Shown here: positions 1 through 11,308 of the stretch, one piece after another
Position numbering within the stretch: the first letter of the stretch is position 1
How the letters are laid out: each line of letters begins with the position of its first letter
Origin: Spongiibacteraceae bacterium
GTDB taxonomy: Bacteria; Pseudomonadota; Gammaproteobacteria; Pseudomonadales; PIVM01
Reading direction: 5' to 3'
NCBI GenBank assembly: GCA_030618505.1
Contig: JAUXDF010000003.1
Location: 1-38,321, forward strand
Length of the DNA: 38,321 nucleotides
Position numbers and translations under genes: made by a program
Notes under the pieces: generated by a model
The model's database searches: none
What the model was told of the DNA's origin: nothing
What the model saw: the letters and a program-made list of their open reading frames with translations, nothing else

Positions 1-1895
1 CGCGCAGATCCGTACGTGCGCTACTAACGCATACGGCTCCTACATCGAGTCAAACACGCAACCGCTGGTTCGGGTACGGGTGAATAACACGCGCTTTCGG
101 AATGAACTCATCAATCAAACGAGTGAATCGACGCCACGGAACTGACTGGCCCCGCTGACTTCGCCTCCTCATTGATTTGATCCATAATCGGATCACCGCT
201 GTTCTGAAGCTGTCTAACGTTTTCATGTTGCTCGGCACGGCATAATAATTAAAGTAACCTTGAACCACAACTTTCAACCACGCACCAACCTTTACCGGGC
301 GGTCGTGATAGCGCTGCTTTAGTACCGACTTAATAGCGTTGATTTTTCCTCGTTGCCGCTTTGCAATGGTTTTACGCAAAAGGGTAAATCCATCATCGCT
401 GCGACGACGTGAACAGCAATGCGTAAACCCCAAAAAATCAAATGTCTGGGGTTTTCCTTCGCCTCGCTCCTGTCGATTGCTCGCTGCAAATCGACCAAAC
501 TCTATCAAGTGGGTTTTGTCTGGGTTCACTGTTAATCTAAACTCTGCCAATCGCTCTGTCAGTGCTTGTTGTAAGCGCTCTCCATCACGTTTGTACTGGC
601 AACACATGACACTATCATCTGCATAGCGAACGACGTAAACTTCTCCGCGCGCATGGCGTTTCCGCCACTGATTTACCCATAGATCTAAAACGTAGTGCAG
701 GTAGATGTTGCCCAGTAAAGGGGATATCACTGCACCTTGTGGTGTTCCTACCACTGTCTTCGATCGACAACCCTCATCCATCACGCCTGCGGTTAATGTC
801 AATTTAATTAATCGCAAAATGCGTGGGTCTGCTATCCGGTGCTTCAGGAAGGCCATCATCCAATCATGGTTGATGTTATCGAAGAAACCTTGAATATCTG
901 CATCCAACACCCAACTAACTTTCTTGACGGTAATCGCCATGTACACCGCATCCAGCGCTCGATGTTGATTGCGCGCTGGACGGAAGCCATAACTAAACCC
1001 CAGAAAGTCTGTTTCGTAAATCGACTCGAGCACCCAGACCAAGGCTTGCTGAACAATTTTATCTTCCAAACAGGTAATCCCTATTGGTCGTTGTTCGCCA
1101 TTGGCTTTGGGTATCCAAAGTCGCTTTACAGATTGCGGCCTATACCGATTGCCATGCAGTCGCCGGCAAAGCTGTTTCAGTTTTGGCGCAAGATTCTCGC
1201 CGTACTGACTCCAGTTTTGACCATCCACTCCAACGGCGGCACGCTTATTTAAAGACCGATAGGCCTTCTCCAGCATCGCTTCGGTGATAGTGTGCATCAG
1301 ATTGTTGAATTGCAGCGAGTTGTTCCGTTTTGCTGCCGTGTGTAGCCGAGCTAATACAGGAAACGCTGTTGTTATGCTCTGAGTCATAGTCACGTCCGAT
1401 TAACTCCACTTTCTCTCTGTCAAGACACTTCGCTCCACCCACTCCGCCGCCGTACTCACAACATGGTTTTCGTGGCCTTGTTCGCGGGCTTCTTCACTAC
1501 TATTATCTTGTCCGACTTCCTACCCTATAGTTTTCAGGATTCGCTAAACACTTCCCCGAAAATACCACCGCTGGAACGGCGGTGGTTACTGGTAGGATCT
1601 CCCGAGTTCCGCACAAAAGACATCCGTACATGCACCAGGTCTACGACTCCGGAGAGTCGACTATCGCACTCACGATGTCGCGCGATGGTCGTATTGCCTT
1701 CCCCTTCAGACAACAGGGTCAGCACTCTCAAGTGGTGATTTCGGAGCTCAATACTGAGCCTGCACATTCCTCTGTCAACGCTTAACCGTTAGCCTTACGA
1801 CTAACCGCTCATGACTCGAGGCCTCAGCGGGTCGTTACCCCTTACTGAGTAGAGGGCTTTCACCTCCAATCTTTTGCCGATTTATCTCGGCGCTC
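1..1895 (-). mobile_element. Group II intron, 3' end cut by window edge
   Basis: A bacterial retroelement on the - strand made of a 5' ribozyme segment (about 1394-1895), an intron-encoded protein, and the start of the post-ORF structure (1-49). The 5' segment contains GCCGAGATAAATCGGC followed by TTGGAGGTGAAAGCC, the usual look of domain I near the 5' end. The roughly 500-nt length before the ORF is normal for domains I-III. After the ORF stop, the - strand reads GAGCCGTATGCG...CGCACGTACGG, a hairpin typical of group II introns just past the RT gene. Domains V and VI lie outside the window. The 5' boundary is uncertain: the best candidate is GAGCG at 1895-1891, one base off the GTGYG consensus. 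The intron is antisense to the adjacent ppnP and ends about 40 bp upstream of it. Confidence 0.8.
50..1393 (-). CDS. ltrA: Group II intron reverse transcriptase/maturase
   Basis: A 447-residue intron-encoded protein that helps the intron RNA fold and splice, and copies it into DNA at a target site. The RT domain occupies roughly residues 40-330, with FSYGFRPAR near 133-141, TPQGAVISPLLGNIYL near 217-232 and the catalytic YADD at 257-260. The maturase (X) domain follows, with GWLKVVVQGYFNYYAVPSNM. The protein ends in IHPYPNQRLRV with no HNH endonuclease domain, so it is an endonuclease-lacking class that would use nicked or replicating DNA as primer. The track start is a GTG; an ATG two codons later is equally possible. 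The frame is intact and the catalytic residues are present, so the protein may be active. The symbol is the generic family name. Confidence 0.92.
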   Translation of the reverse strand: MTMTQSITTAFPVLARLHTAAKRNNSLQFNNLMHTITEAMLEKAYRSLNKRAAVGVDGQNWSQYGENLAPKLKQLCRRLHGNRYRPQSVKRLWIPKANGEQRPIGITCLEDKIVQQALVWVLESIYETDFLGFSYGFRPARNQHRALDAVYMAITVKKVSWVLDADIQGFFDNINHDWMMAFLKHRIADPRILRLIKLTLTAGVMDEGCRSKTVVGTPQGAVISPLLGNIYLHYVLDLWVNQWRKRHARGEVYVVRYADDSVMCCQYKRDGERLQQALTERLAEFRLTVNPDKTHLIEFGRFAASNRQERGEGKPQTFDFLGFTHCCSRRRSDDGFTLLRKTIAKRQRGKINAIKSVLKQRYHDRPVKVGAWLKVVVQGYFNYYAVPSNMKTLDSFRTAVIRLWIKSMRRRSQRGQSVPWRRFTRLIDEFIPKARVIHPYPNQRLRV

Positions 1896-1938: not shown

Positions 1939-2256
1939 ATGTCTGCATTTAACAATGTAACGGTAATCAAAGCCGCCAGTATTTACTTTGATGGTAAAGC
2001 TACCAGTCGTAAAATTACTTTTGCCGATGGCAGTATAAAAACCTTAGGCATTATGATGGTGGGTGACTATGATTTTGCTACGGTTGAAAAAGAGTTAATG
2101 GAAATTTTAGCGGGCGATATTGATGTGTTGTTACCCAAGTCAACTAACTGGCAAACAGTTAATGCATGGCAATCTTTTTAAGTGAGCGCAAACGCTTCTT
2201 TTAAAATTCGCGCTAAAACACTGACTGACTATTGTTGTTCATATTTAGCAGAATAA
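1939..2256 (+). pseudogene. ppnP: Pyrimidine/purine nucleoside phosphorylase PpnP, interrupted by in-frame TAA
   Basis: PpnP (formerly YaiE/DUF1255) is a small single-domain cupin that phosphorolyses several nucleosides to base and ribose-1-phosphate. The ATG at 1939 has AGAGGGA upstream. The first 80 residues fit the family (GKATSRKITFADGSIKTLGIMMVGDYDF, then DIDVLLPKSTNWQ and the WQSF stretch). A TAA then occurs at 2179-2181. The same frame continues without any shift as VSANASFKIRAKTLTDYCCSYLAE to a second TAA at 2254, which is the normal family C terminus ending in a CCSY-like motif. A single substitution (for example GAA, CAA or AAA to TAA) would explain this. The truncated product lacks the last cupin strands. 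The group II intron lies immediately upstream and may have removed the promoter. Readthrough or a sequencing error cannot be excluded. Confidence 0.85.
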
Positions 2257-2392: not shown

Positions 2393-3946
2393 TTATTTAA
2401 GTTTGCGGAAGTCTTTCACTTTATTAATTACTGGAAACTTATAGGTGTCGTCAAAAAATGCTTTACCAGCACCATAACCACGCATATAAGGGAACCAACC
2501 ACGCTCAGGTAGCGTTCTAACAAAGTTAGCTTCCCAACCTTTAGGCGCTTTACCTGGACCTAAAAGCATATAATAAGAACCATCTGGGTTTGTACGAAGA
2601 CCAGGGGTTCTGCTACCTACCGTTGCTTTACCATCGCCATTTTTTTCACGATTATCAATAACCGTTCGAGTATCTGTATCATAAATTACAATCGACCAGA
2701 ATAGAGATGCAGGAACATCTTTCTCGATACGGATAATGTAGTTTTCCTCACCATGTAATCTAGCGCCAGTTTCATCTTCAAATTTACCAATGTACGCTTG
2801 AGCTCGCCCTCCTGTACGCGGAATAGTCATAGCAGGAGAGGTAGTAATTGCTTCATAGGTGTAACGAGCACGAGGATCAAAGATGTCATAGTATCTCATG
2901 CGTTGATTGCCTTTAATGCCATCACCCCATTTACCACCAAGAACCATGCGCCAGTTATTTTGACGTAAAACACCATCTAATCTTTCATTGAAGACAAAAG
3001 TCTTCGCCATTAGCTCGCCCTGTAATGCACCGTCGATTAATATTTTTTTCTGACGTTCGGTAGGGTTGAATGGTTTACCTTTTTCAATACCTAATGTTTT
3101 TAGCCAGTACATGAATAATCTATCACGCTCCATCACTAGCTCTTCATTGATCGCTATATGAAGCATTTCCCAATAAGCTAATCCACGAGGTTGATAGCTC
3201 ACCAGTAATTGATCGTTTGCATCTAAATGTTTAGTAACTGGTTTTTCTCCGTAGTAATTTATATACATTTTACTACTTAGTTCTTTAATTTTTTCAGGAG
3301 AACCAATAATACGACCTAATAATAATACGCGGTTTGTTTTAACATGGTGGACATGGAAGTCATCTGTAAGTGCTGAAGGTTCAGGTATCGTATCAACAGG
3401 CGTATTTGGACCTACAATAATATGTCTGCCACCATGACCCGCCTGAGCACTAAATAAGCCAACATCATCAGGGCTTGCTTGCCAGCTATCAACAACCATA
3501 CCGACAACTGTACCCGCGGGAATATCTAAGATAACGGCGGATTTACTGGTATCGGAAGTGGCGACGAAATAAGTGCTGGATTCATTTGCCGTTAAAACAC
3601 CTCTACGTTCATTGAAAGTGCTGATAGTAGCGAACCTGTTGTCGCCATAACCTTTAACTTTCTCTGTAAGCTCGTGTCTAATACGAGTAATGCCTACAAT
3701 CGGTAAGCCCCATAGATAAAGCTGAGTAGCACGTTGATGATCCATGAGATCATACATTTTATCAGCTGTTTCATGTGTTGGAAAACTATGATCAAGTTCA
3801 TATTCACCAAAAAATGTTTTTACTTTTCCGGTAATTGGCATCAAGCTTTCAAACTCTTTTTCAGTCTGAATTTCAGACAGTGCCATACTGGGAATTAATA
3901 AAACAGACATGGCAATGCTTAACAATAATTTCACTTTTATTTTCAT
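2393..3946 (-). CDS. DUF1254/DUF1214 domain protein, secreted
   Basis: A 517-residue protein of unknown molecular function. It starts with a Sec signal peptide (MKIKVKLLLSIAMSVLLIPSMALS, cleavage likely after residue 24), so the mature protein should be periplasmic or exported. The N-terminal half fits DUF1254 (ATQLYLWGLPIVGITR near residues 75-90, then a long beta-rich stretch). The C-terminal part fits DUF1214 (VPASLFWSIVIYDTDTRTVI, then PDGSYYMLLGPGKAPKGWEANFVRT and GWFPYMRGYG). AAAAAGGAAAA precedes the ATG. It is followed upstream by a second gene of the same architecture, making a tandem pair. The family is common in marine and soil proteobacteria, with no established reaction, and none is assigned here. 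Confidence 0.88.
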   Translation of the reverse strand: MKIKVKLLLSIAMSVLLIPSMALSEIQTEKEFESLMPITGKVKTFFGEYELDHSFPTHETADKMYDLMDHQRATQLYLWGLPIVGITRIRHELTEKVKGYGDNRFATISTFNERRGVLTANESSTYFVATSDTSKSAVILDIPAGTVVGMVVDSWQASPDDVGLFSAQAGHGGRHIIVGPNTPVDTIPEPSALTDDFHVHHVKTNRVLLLGRIIGSPEKIKELSSKMYINYYGEKPVTKHLDANDQLLVSYQPRGLAYWEMLHIAINEELVMERDRLFMYWLKTLGIEKGKPFNPTERQKKILIDGALQGELMAKTFVFNERLDGVLRQNNWRMVLGGKWGDGIKGNQRMRYYDIFDPRARYTYEAITTSPAMTIPRTGGRAQAYIGKFEDETGARLHGEENYIIRIEKDVPASLFWSIVIYDTDTRTVIDNREKNGDGKATVGSRTPGLRTNPDGSYYMLLGPGKAPKGWEANFVRTLPERGWFPYMRGYGAGKAFFDDTYKFPVINKVKDFRKLK

Positions 3947-4073: not shown

Positions 4074-5621
4074 TTAATTTATTTTTTCAAAATCATTTAA
4101 TTTCCATGATCCATCCCAAAAAGTCTCAGTAGGACCATACCAACGAAAATAGGCGTGCCATGTTTTTCCTGGTATTGTTTGAACCCAGTTATTCTCTTTA
4201 CCTTCTGGCGCTGTTGGCCCTAAATAAAGATCTACAGATCCGTCTTCATTATAATCTAAGTCTGAAATTCTATTATTAAACTCAACACCTCGTTGTTCGG
4301 TTTCAATAAATGAGCGTGTTTCTACGTCGTAAATAGCTAAAGACCAAAAATGCTTAGCTGGCACATCAGCATCAACATGTAATTTGTAGGTGTTTTCACC
4401 AAAAAACCAATTGCTGTCACGATCTTTTGCGATAGCCGCATAAGTTTGCCCAAACCCTGGTGGGTATTCACGTGGCGTCCATACTTGTTGTACTGACACT
4501 ATTTGATACCAAAGGATTGACCTTGGTGTGTAGGCGCCATAGTTTTCTTCTCTTTGTCCTTCAAAATCAGACATAATTTTAAGATTCAACCATTCAGTGT
4601 CATCATACACGTGCCTAAGTTTAGGGTTTTTCAAGTTATCAGGAATCTTGTACCGAATAGTAAACGCTTCGTTTACAAGCATTGCGTGTCCAATAGTTTC
4701 TGCTTCAATCAGTATTTTCTTTAAACGTTCATCTGGGTTAAAAGGCTTTCCTTTTTCAATACCTATTTCTCGCAGCATAGATAGTGCATAAAGATCACGC
4801 TCTTCAATCTCAAGATTTTGAATTACCTCATTAATCTGTTCCCAATATTTAAGTCCTTTTTGGCGATTAATTCTATATTCTTTTCCACCCGTGGCAGGAT
4901 CACCCATTAAAACAAATTTCTTTTTAAAGGTGGGATCGCTGAGAGGATATGTTTTAATTTGTTGCAGTAGTGTCGTCGCTTTTTCCGCCGTCATATCCTT
5001 AGACAAAGGGACTCGTGTTATGGAATATACTTGGTAAGTCTTTGCCTGTGCAATTTGGTAACCCGACGGAATATCACCTTCATAGTTAGGTGGAAGAATT
5101 AATATTTTATCTCCCTTGGCTCTATTAGGGCCAACCATACCAAAGTCATAAAATGCTCGATTCCATTCATCGTAAAACCCTGCATTAATAGGGCCGGCAG
5201 GCACCTCATAAACAACTGGACCACCCGTTTTACGTAAATCAATATTATCAAAAAGATAAACTACCGACTGGTTTGGTGTTAAAACCTCATGACCTGCATG
5301 CACTTTCTCATTGTAGAGCATCGCTCCTAGGTTCTGTACACCGATTTCATCCATAGCCTTTTCAAATAAATAAGTATTATAAGCGGCCTCAACCCAGAAA
5401 ACAGACTGCGTTGCTCTTTGAAAATCAAGTTCATCAAATAGCTTTTGCGAACTCGCGGCTGTAGGTAAATCATGATCGAAATCTAACTTCCCAATTTTTG
5501 AATCCAAGGTTTTTTTATATTCTACACCCGAAGTTGATTGTGCTTTCGTGGTTGTATTTGCACAACTTATAACAAATGAAATAGTTGATATAAGCAGCAA
5601 AGCCTTCGCTATTTTTTTCAT
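4074..5621 (-). CDS. DUF1254/DUF1214 domain lipoprotein
   Basis: A 515-residue paralogue of the next gene on the same strand, with the same two-domain layout: DUF1254 in the N-terminal half (LDFQRATQSVFWVEAAYNT near residue 66 onward) and DUF1214 at the C terminus (VPAKHFWSLAIYDVETRSFI, LYLGPTAPEGKENNWVQT, WHAYFRWYGPTETF). The N terminus is a lipoprotein signal with a lipobox ending FVISCA, placing the lipidated cysteine at about residue 20, so it is probably membrane-anchored. AAAAGGAAA lies 5 nt before the ATG. The gene starts only 20 bp past the stop of the tnsA fragment. The two paralogues may be co-transcribed (about 130 bp apart) and differ in localisation. Substrate and function are unknown. 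Confidence 0.88.
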   Translation of the reverse strand: MKKIAKALLLISTISFVISCANTTTKAQSTSGVEYKKTLDSKIGKLDFDHDLPTAASSQKLFDELDFQRATQSVFWVEAAYNTYLFEKAMDEIGVQNLGAMLYNEKVHAGHEVLTPNQSVVYLFDNIDLRKTGGPVVYEVPAGPINAGFYDEWNRAFYDFGMVGPNRAKGDKILILPPNYEGDIPSGYQIAQAKTYQVYSITRVPLSKDMTAEKATTLLQQIKTYPLSDPTFKKKFVLMGDPATGGKEYRINRQKGLKYWEQINEVIQNLEIEERDLYALSMLREIGIEKGKPFNPDERLKKILIEAETIGHAMLVNEAFTIRYKIPDNLKNPKLRHVYDDTEWLNLKIMSDFEGQREENYGAYTPRSILWYQIVSVQQVWTPREYPPGFGQTYAAIAKDRDSNWFFGENTYKLHVDADVPAKHFWSLAIYDVETRSFIETEQRGVEFNNRISDLDYNEDGSVDLYLGPTAPEGKENNWVQTIPGKTWHAYFRWYGPTETFWDGSWKLNDFEKIN

Positions 5622-5641
5622 AACATTTCCTTTTCATAAGT

Positions 5642-5962
5642 TTATTTATAGAGAAGCCAAGATAGTTTCCCCCTTAAAATCAACAAACAGGGAAATTGCT
5701 CACGAATATCGACAACAATTGAAGCCCAATCATACAACAGGAATGCCGCCAATTCCAAATCAGATAATAGGTGGACGATTCGACCATGTGTTATTGCGGG
5801 CCGTCGATGAACACGACCCTTGCTAGGTACATCGCGAACTTCAAGAAAAGGCTTATATGATTTCCCGGTGCCTGCGCCCCTGCCATCTTTAAAGCGTTTG
5901 CGGATTTTGGGCTCTAAGAGCTCAATTACTGGTTTAGGGGAAGGTTCAAGAAAGGTGCTCAT
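5642..5962 (-). pseudogene. tnsA: Truncated Tn7-like transposase subunit TnsA (N-terminal fragment)
   Basis: A 106-codon ORF whose first 90 or so residues match the N terminus of Tn7 TnsA, the nuclease that cuts the 5' ends of the transposon. Matching stretches include KDGRGAGTGKSYKPFLEV, VPSKGRVHR, GRIVHLLSDLELAAFL and VVDIREQFP. Tn7 TnsA is about 270 residues, with catalytic Glu63, Asp114, Gln130 and Lys132. Here only the Glu of LSDLE survives. After FP the sequence becomes unrelated (CLLILRGKLSW) and stops, so the catalytic core is lost, with the breakpoint near 5690. It starts just inside a Tn7-type right end and reads away from glmS, exactly as tnsA does in Tn7 at attTn7. It is a remnant, not a functional gene. 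Confidence 0.88.
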
Positions 5963-6040
5963 AGAAAGATTCCAAACTACGCCTGAATTTTAAGCATAGC
6001 TTAGAAAGCTGAAAGTATGACACTTTATTGTAAGCTTACA
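5690..6040 (-). mobile_element. Tn7-like transposon remnant (right end plus tnsA 5' part) at attTn7
   Basis: Read from glmS, the element begins TGTAAGCTTACAATAAAGTG. Tn7R begins TGTGGGCGGACAATAAAGTC, so the terminal TGT and the ACAATAAAGT core of the outermost TnsB site sit at the same spacing. The TGT lies 25 bp beyond the glmS TAA, the canonical Tn7 insertion distance. The bases ATAGC at 6041-6045 are where a 5-bp target duplication would be expected. Inward of the end comes the truncated tnsA. No tnsB, tnsC or tnsD and no left end are visible, so most of the element has been deleted or replaced. Confidence 0.82.
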
Positions 6041-6065
6041 ATAGCGGTATCTCCCATTTTTAGAA

Positions 6066-7898
6066 TTACTCCACTGTCACCGATTTAGCTAAATTACGCG
6101 GCTGATCTACATCCGTACCTTTTAACACGGCCACATGATAGGAAAGCAACTGCAGAGGCAGGGTATATAAAATAGGTGCGACAATATCGGCTGCATGGGG
6201 AACATTAATTACGCTTACTCCCTCCTCATTTTTAAACCCTGCATCACTATCAGCAAATACATACAGCTTGCCACCACGTGCTCGCACTTCTTCCAGGTTC
6301 GATTTTAGCTTTTCAAGCAACTCATCATTAGGCGCTACAGCAACAATTGGCATATCTTCATCGACCAATGCCAGCGGGCCATGTTTAAGCTCACCCGCAG
6401 GGTAGGATTCGGCATGGATATAGGATATCTCCTTCAGCTTTAATGCCCCCTCCATCGCAACAGGGTAGAGCACGCCACGGCCCAGAAACAGTGCGTGACG
6501 CTTATCTGCAAAGGCTTGTGACATCTTTTGTATTGGGCCATCAAGCTCCAGCGCCCGTTCCAACAAAGAGGGAGTTTGATGCAAAGCCATAACAATTTTT
6601 TCTTCCTGCTCCGCACTCATACCATGGCGACGTCCCAGTGCCAAAGTCAGGATTAACAAGGCAACCAGTTGGGTAGTAAAGGCCTTGGTTGAAGCAACGC
6701 CAATTTCCGGACCAGCAAAGGTCATTAATGCCAGATCGGACTCTCTAACCAATGAGCTTTGTGCAACATTGCAAATAGTCATTGTTGAGGTATAACCCAA
6801 GCCCTTTGCCAAACGTAAGGCGGCGAGAGTATCGGCTGTTTCACCGGATTGAGAGATGGTAATTAACAGGGTATTTTTTTGTACCACAAATTTTCTATAA
6901 CGAAACTCACTGGCCACCTCGACACGACAAGGTATATTGGCTACTCCCTCAAACCAGTATTTGGCCACCATCCCAGAATGATAGCTGGTACCGCAGGCTA
7001 CAATCTGTACCGCTTCCACTTGATCAAGTATCGCTTTAGCATCTGCACCGAAGGATTCTTCAATGATTGTTTTTTTACCGATACGCCCTTGTAAAGTATC
7101 TTTAATAACCTCGGGCTGCTCGTAAATCTCCTTAAGCATATAGTGGCGGTATTGGCCTTTTTCAGCAGCTTCAGCACTTTCATGTATATGCTCTTGCTTT
7201 CGCTCTACGCTTTCACCCTTACTGTTCCAGATATGAAAACTATCCGGTGTAATTTCTGCCATATCACCTTCTTCAAGGTAAATAAATCGATCAGTAACCT
7301 GCCGTAATGCCAGTTGATCGGAGGCCAGAAAATTTTCTCCCAAACCTAATCCCAACACCAAGGGGCTGCCACTTCGGGCAGCAATAATTTTTTCAGGCTC
7401 AGCAGTGCTGATAACAGCCAAACCAAAAGCTCCCTCAAGCTCAGTAATTGTAGAGCGAAGGGCTGACATTAAATCAGCATTGGTTTTCAGTTTTTCTTTA
7501 AGCAAATGGACAATTACTTCAGTATCGGTTTCTGACTGAAATTCATAACCCTTTTGTTTCAGCGACTGTCTTAGCTCATCGTGGTTTTCAATAATACCAT
7601 TATGCACCAAAGCAATTTCCTCTCCCGATTGATGCGGGTGGGCATTGCTTTGTGAGGGTTTACCGTGGGTAGCCCAACGGGTATGGGAAATACCAACCGA
7701 TCCACTAAGTGGACTTTTATTTAGGCTGTCTTCCAATGCAGCGACTTTTCCAAGCTCTTTAACACAAGCGAGGTTATGTTGTGCATCAATGAGTGCGATG
7801 CCAGCTGAGTCATAACCTCGATATTCAAGACGTTTAAGACCTTCCACTAAAATAGCAGCTACTTCTCTTTTAGCTGCCGCGCCAACTATGCCACACAT
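6066..7898 (-). CDS. glmS: Glutamine-fructose-6-phosphate aminotransferase (isomerizing)
   Basis: Makes glucosamine-6-phosphate from fructose-6-phosphate and glutamine, the first step to UDP-GlcNAc for peptidoglycan and LPS. It has 610 residues (E. coli 609). The N terminus MCGIVGAA provides the catalytic Cys2 of the glutaminase domain, followed by HTRWATHG and HNGIIENH. Two SIS domains follow, with CGTSYHSG and SQSGETADT in the first and [18 protein letters not shown] in the second. The C terminus [11 protein letters not shown] is the strongly conserved stretch whose DNA is the TnsD recognition target, consistent with the Tn7 end found just downstream. It lies 23 bp after glmU, presumably in one operon. 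Confidence 0.98.

Positions 7899-9898: not shown

Positions 9899-11308
<1,410 letters not shown>

Follow-up and report, generated by a model that had tools for sequence, protein, structure and literature searches.

Organization of the locus downstream of glmS

The sequence analysed here (the window) is a stretch of 38,321 nucleotides that makes up the whole of contig C308 in a Spongiibacteraceae genome bin of 461 contigs, with 84% completeness and 3% contamination. From glmS towards the contig edge, the window contains a short sequence resembling the right end of Tn7, the 5' part of a tnsA gene, two tandem genes for DUF1254/DUF1214 proteins, a PpnP-like frame and part of a group II intron (Table 1).

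Table 1. Features of the glmS-linked element in the window and on contig C187 (locus L016)
Feature	Location	Strand	Basis or remarks
glmS	window 6066..7898	(-)	610 aa; C-terminus ...NLAKSVTVE; ORF and Pfam SIS/GATase
Target-site duplication ATAGC, right copy	window 6041..6045		5 bp; read from sequence
Right end TGTAAGCTTACAATAAAGTGTCATACT	window 6014..6040	(-)	terminal TGT and one canonical TnsB-like site
Remaining right end / tnsA leader	window 5963..6013	(-)	from alignment
tnsA 5' fragment, codons 1-92	window 5687..5962	(-)	open frame
Putative deletion junction and leader of first DUF1254 gene	window 5622..5686	(-)	
DUF1254/DUF1214 protein, 515 aa	window 4074..5621	(-)	Pfam E=2e-18 and 2.7e-29
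Second DUF1254/DUF1214 protein, 517 aa	window 2393..3946	(-)	Pfam E=1e-13 and 8e-21
PpnP-like frame, 81 aa	window 1939..2181	(+)	profile positions 2-70 of 92; Pfam E=1.2e-22
Group II intron	window 1..1860	(-)	5' domains 1637-1860; RT/maturase ORF 50-1393
Group II intron 3' domains D5/D6	L016:16760-16834 (C187)		39.7 bits; gathering score 40
Patatin-like phospholipase, 313 aa	C187, between intron and metallo-hydrolase		
Metallo-beta-lactamase-fold protein, 600 aa	C187		alkylsulfatase dimerisation domain
Third DUF1254 protein, 371 aa	C187, next to left end		
Left end	L016:11170-11322 (C187)		ATAGC + TGTGGACATACAATAAAGCATCATACT; three TnsB-like sites in all
Target-site duplication ATAGC, left copy	L016:11170-11174		

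The C-terminus of GlmS is 74-88% identical in relatives, and the 3' end of the gene is where the TnsD recognition site is expected. Exactly 25 bp on the minus strand separate the glmS stop codon (window 6066-6068) from the TGT of the right end, and the adjoining copy of ATAGC falls 21-25 bp past the stop. Insertion at attTn7 is expected about 20-25 bp downstream of glmS with the right end towards the gene, as found here, and for Tn7 itself, insertion about 20 bp past the stop codon of glmS, accompanied by duplication of 5 bp, has been described (PMC2918618). The right end consists of TGT, six bases and then ACAATAAAGTGTCATACT, a layout shared with the right ends of L021 (the NAT4 element), L022 (Endozoicomonas acroporae) and L023. 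By alignment, the right end of the window has no canonical TnsB site beyond the first, compared with three such sites in NAT4 and two in L023; within this closely related group the number per right end thus ranges from one to three.

A truncated tnsA gene adjoins the right end

The open reading frame at window 5642-5962 (-) matches TnsA of E. coli Tn7, residues 16-93 (1t0f, E=2.5e-22; 1f1z, E=2.6e-22), and the homology breaks off at about residue 92, leaving 92 of about 285 residues. Pfam and NCBIfam scans of this fragment had no hits with thresholds as loose as E<=10 and E<=0.1, because the models need a longer sequence, whereas the pairwise search succeeded; we assign it to the TnsA-type endonucleases on pairwise homology and context. 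Of what we take to be the catalytic triad of Tn7 TnsA (E63, D114 and K132, with the offset taken from the 1t0f/1f1z alignment), the fragment retains the residue aligned with E63 and lacks the region that carries D114 and K132. The original prediction had placed a Tn7-like insertion at attTn7, with its right end by glmS, tnsA first in the order and orientation of Tn7, tnsA cut at about residue 90 and the catalytic genes gone, and all of this was borne out, with no tnsB-E between the ends.

Identity to the TnsA proteins of intact glmS-linked elements is 70-71%, and the nearest TnsA found, in genome G128, is about 77-79% identical. Measured against NAT4 TnsA, the window fragment and G128 TnsA have the same identity of 71%. 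There is neither a stop nor a frameshift ahead of the break. Since the fragment has accumulated no excess of amino-acid change and its frame is open up to the break, the break is probably recent on the scale of amino-acid divergence.

Beyond the break, the tnsA frame runs through about 14 unrelated codons and closes at 5642. In a metagenome bin as fragmented as this one, a chimaeric junction between tnsA and DUF1254, or the dropping of transposase genes from the bin, has to be considered. We regard such an assembly artefact as most improbable: the junction lies 5.6 kb inside the contig in single-copy sequence, the leader of the DUF1254 gene, with a ribosome-binding-like site, follows it directly, and the bin holds no TnsB fragment.

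The left end lies on a second contig

A search of the window for ATAGCTGT found no left end, and we therefore scanned the whole genome for TGTN6ACAATAAAG. The scan returned two exact matches, the known one by glmS and a second on contig C187. The left end had been thought lost, which proved wrong, whereas the guess that an ATAGC duplication would flank the element was correct. Two further TnsB-like sites follow the terminal one on L016, one at 11250 with two mismatches and an exact one at 11305, and the left-end block GTAAGTCATTGATTTTATTAGAG recurs in three other elements of the subfamily, likewise at the left end. ATAGC stands at both element ends as a 5-bp target duplication, oriented as it must be for TGT...ACA ends. 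TnsB-binding repeats of the Tn7 family are dense at the right end and spaced at the left; here the TGT/ACA termini are accompanied by three predicted sites on the left and one canonical site on the right.

The last 119 bases of C187 are identical to the first 119 bases of the window, a sequence that is otherwise absent from the genome. This overlap sits inside a single group II intron (window 1-1860 and L016:16760-16912), so placed that the intron spans the contig break, and joining the contigs gives an element 11,659 bp long. One copy of the intron was seen in the bin, where the only other intron-like stretch is 85 bp at 79% identity on C272. We treat the join as a strong inference that draws on the assembly overlap and not on reads or a closed genome. 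The element has a GC content of 40%, and its flanks 43-44%. Outside the left end lie PAS, MCP, Usp and RND genes, which do not adjoin glmS in 20 order-level relatives; in a comparison set of this depth, with no close relative, left-flank synteny neither confirms nor contradicts the join.

Across all 3.29 Mb of the genome, each strand has a single copy of the extended motif TGTN6ACAATAAAGNNTCATACT, and the reversed control gave zero matches. The motif is found in 4 of the 392 genomes of the order, the source genome among them. When the joined sequence (55 kb) is compared with the inner 18-mer, every site outside the two ends differs from it at four or more positions. The match at the right end is not due to chance.

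These data bear on the alternative that the right and left ends stem from two insertions, with the DUF1254 genes being chromosomal and joined to a right-end relic by deletion. In its favour, the assembly keeps the contigs apart and synteny at order level lends the left flank no support, but the two ends share the same 5-bp duplication and the same end motif in the correct orientation, the motif has exactly one forward and one reverse copy in the genome, the contig overlap is unique and the intron continuous across it. Two separate insertions are therefore, in our estimation, hardly likely.

Cargo between the ends

From the right end, the gene order is tnsA fragment, two DUF1254 genes, PpnP-like frame, intron, patatin, alkylsulfatase-like metallo-hydrolase and third DUF1254 gene, the last three forming a cluster at L016:12044-16195. 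The PpnP-like frame falls short of the full profile and is possibly truncated. It had been left undecided whether the tandem DUF1254 genes are cargo or DNA joined to the element by a deletion; because both lie between the two element ends, we read them as cargo, and the second option falls. Within the order, the best matches to the DUF1254 cargo do not exceed 36% identity, and the best plasmid match, from Sinorhizobium, reaches 37.8%. CRISPR-associated (I-F3) Tn7-like transposons carry Cascade genes and a CRISPR array; no cas genes were seen among the annotated larger open reading frames between the ends.

Transposition genes are absent from the element

Similarity to tnsB, C, D or E was found neither in the window nor on C187. 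TnsB was also sought throughout the source genome, where no relative was detected with a query that matches five comparison genomes; because the bin is 84% complete, this absence is no proof, and a helper transposase could be encoded elsewhere. With TnsC likewise missing from both contigs, the element is Tn7-derived and transposase-less and not a complete member of the family. Nor is a TnsD encoded in the window or on C187; as the elements of relatives have tnsD, the gene has presumably been deleted.

The island is now likely to be immobile, for two reasons: the searches turned up no transposase, and its right end has a single canonical TnsB site. The second of these arguments carries moderate weight, as a one-site right end need not signal decay: E. 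acroporae has one site beside an intact tnsABCDE, which weakens the single site as a sign of decay.

Related elements at glmS

Intact elements after glmS, which the original prediction had proposed to look for in relatives, were found, with the same ends, in NAT4, E. acroporae and G128, all relatives at the level of the order. The NAT4 element, from a Pseudomonadales metagenome-assembled genome (L021, the G194 record), resembles the window in its order of glmS, right end TGTAAATCAACAATAAAGTATCATACT and tnsA, and its left end has the same motif and spacing; its duplication is AGCGC. Unlike the window, it has a complete tnsABCDE (286, 703, 550, 528 and 544 aa), three TnsB sites at the right end and other cargo. 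The E. acroporae element (L022) is likewise at glmS. So is the G128 element (L098), which has the same end motif but differs in being about 26 kb long with a complete tnsABCDE. Likeness to the prototype Tn7 of E. coli extends to TnsA homology, TGT...ACA termini, the ACAATAAAG core of the TnsB site, the 5-bp duplication and insertion about 20-25 bp past glmS; the prototype differs in having tnsABCDE, resistance cargo and, at the right end, four partially overlapping TnsB sites, the final two of which must overlap for function (PMC11406308).

The element of genome G376 (L099:1493-11627) also sits at glmS. It measures 10,135 bp and has both ends, a TAAGC duplication and retained cargo, while tnsB-D are absent. 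It differs from the window in its RHS-type cargo protein of 2204 aa, a frameshifted tnsA remnant, a tnsE fragment and two right-end sites. We consider it a second, independent case in which both ends and the duplication persist without working tns genes.

In G128, a gene-free element of 349 bp that has both ends (L098:12322-12670) lies between glmS and the complete element, and ATAGT is found at all three junctions of the pair. One possibility for it is a natural mini-Tn7, another is a tandem insertion shrunk by deletion. Tn7 target immunity makes a tandem of the same end type unexpected.

Relatives that carried the same end after glmS and no Tn7-like genes would speak against a Tn7-like insertion. 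None were encountered: among 19 relatives, sampled downstream of glmS with no advance knowledge of an element, TGTN6ACAATAAAG was absent from that position, G015 alone having a decayed version, and the relatives that do show the end carry tns genes or tns remnants, so that end-like sequence is found together with tns genes or with what is left of them. In G015 (L086), which belongs to the same genus as G376, the decayed right end begins 24 bp past the glmS stop, has three mismatches in the TnsB site and is followed by a tnsA-like start (MKDFLCPI). A class-wide survey of 369 genomes for the end motif yielded no further element, and the end subfamily is therefore narrow.

Discussion

Altogether, we think it probable that the region downstream of glmS is an attTn7 island, derived from a Tn7-like insertion of the tnsABCDE type and immobilised by an internal deletion. 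We envision that a tnsABCDE-type element inserted into attTn7 in the standard orientation, with its right end and tnsA towards glmS and ATAGC duplicated, and that it did so by the ordinary TnsD pathway, using TnsABC and TnsD. A single internal deletion, with one edge at about codon 93 of tnsA and the other a short way upstream of a cargo DUF1254 gene, would then have taken the rest of tnsA together with tnsB-E. What would be left is an 11.66-kb island that kept both ends, along with the three DUF1254 genes, the metallo-hydrolase, the patatin, the PpnP-like frame and the group II intron.

An unlikely alternative is that the island is a natural non-autonomous Tn7-like element whose ends and cargo are moved by a related TnsABC(D) acting in trans, encoded either in its own genome or in a visiting one. 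The element still has its two termini and its duplication in intact form, as trans-mobilisation would lead one to expect, and paired-end elements that lack working tns genes recur, in the 10,135-bp G376 element with its TAAGC duplication and in the G128 mini element, whose end motif is that of the neighbouring complete element. Against this, the genome has no TnsB relative, the element is present in one copy only, and its single canonical right-end site contrasts with the four of the prototype and their functionally required final overlap (PMC11406308). Immobilisation by deletion is thus the reading that we favour.

That Tn7-like islands occur at glmS, degraded ones included, is already known in kind, and the individual element described here is otherwise ordinary. 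Large surveys of Tn7-like elements start from core tns genes and define candidates by adjacent tns genes (PMC8649781). Because of this starting point, islands without tns genes go uncounted and their cargo is taken as ordinary chromosome. Paired ends and a target duplication, by comparison, give the exact limits of an island, even one that is spread over two contigs, and a strict search for ends in one order produced a second independent case as well as a 349-bp element that consists of ends only. A wider possibility, which we put forward tentatively and consider rather doubtful, is that transposase-less paired-end Tn7-like elements are recurrent at attTn7 in this order and are kept since some behave as natural mini-Tn7s that are mobilised in trans. 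Examples of this one recurrent class would then be the window element, the G376 element and the 349-bp element of G128. How frequent stranded attTn7 islands are, and whether some of them move in trans, can now be tested.
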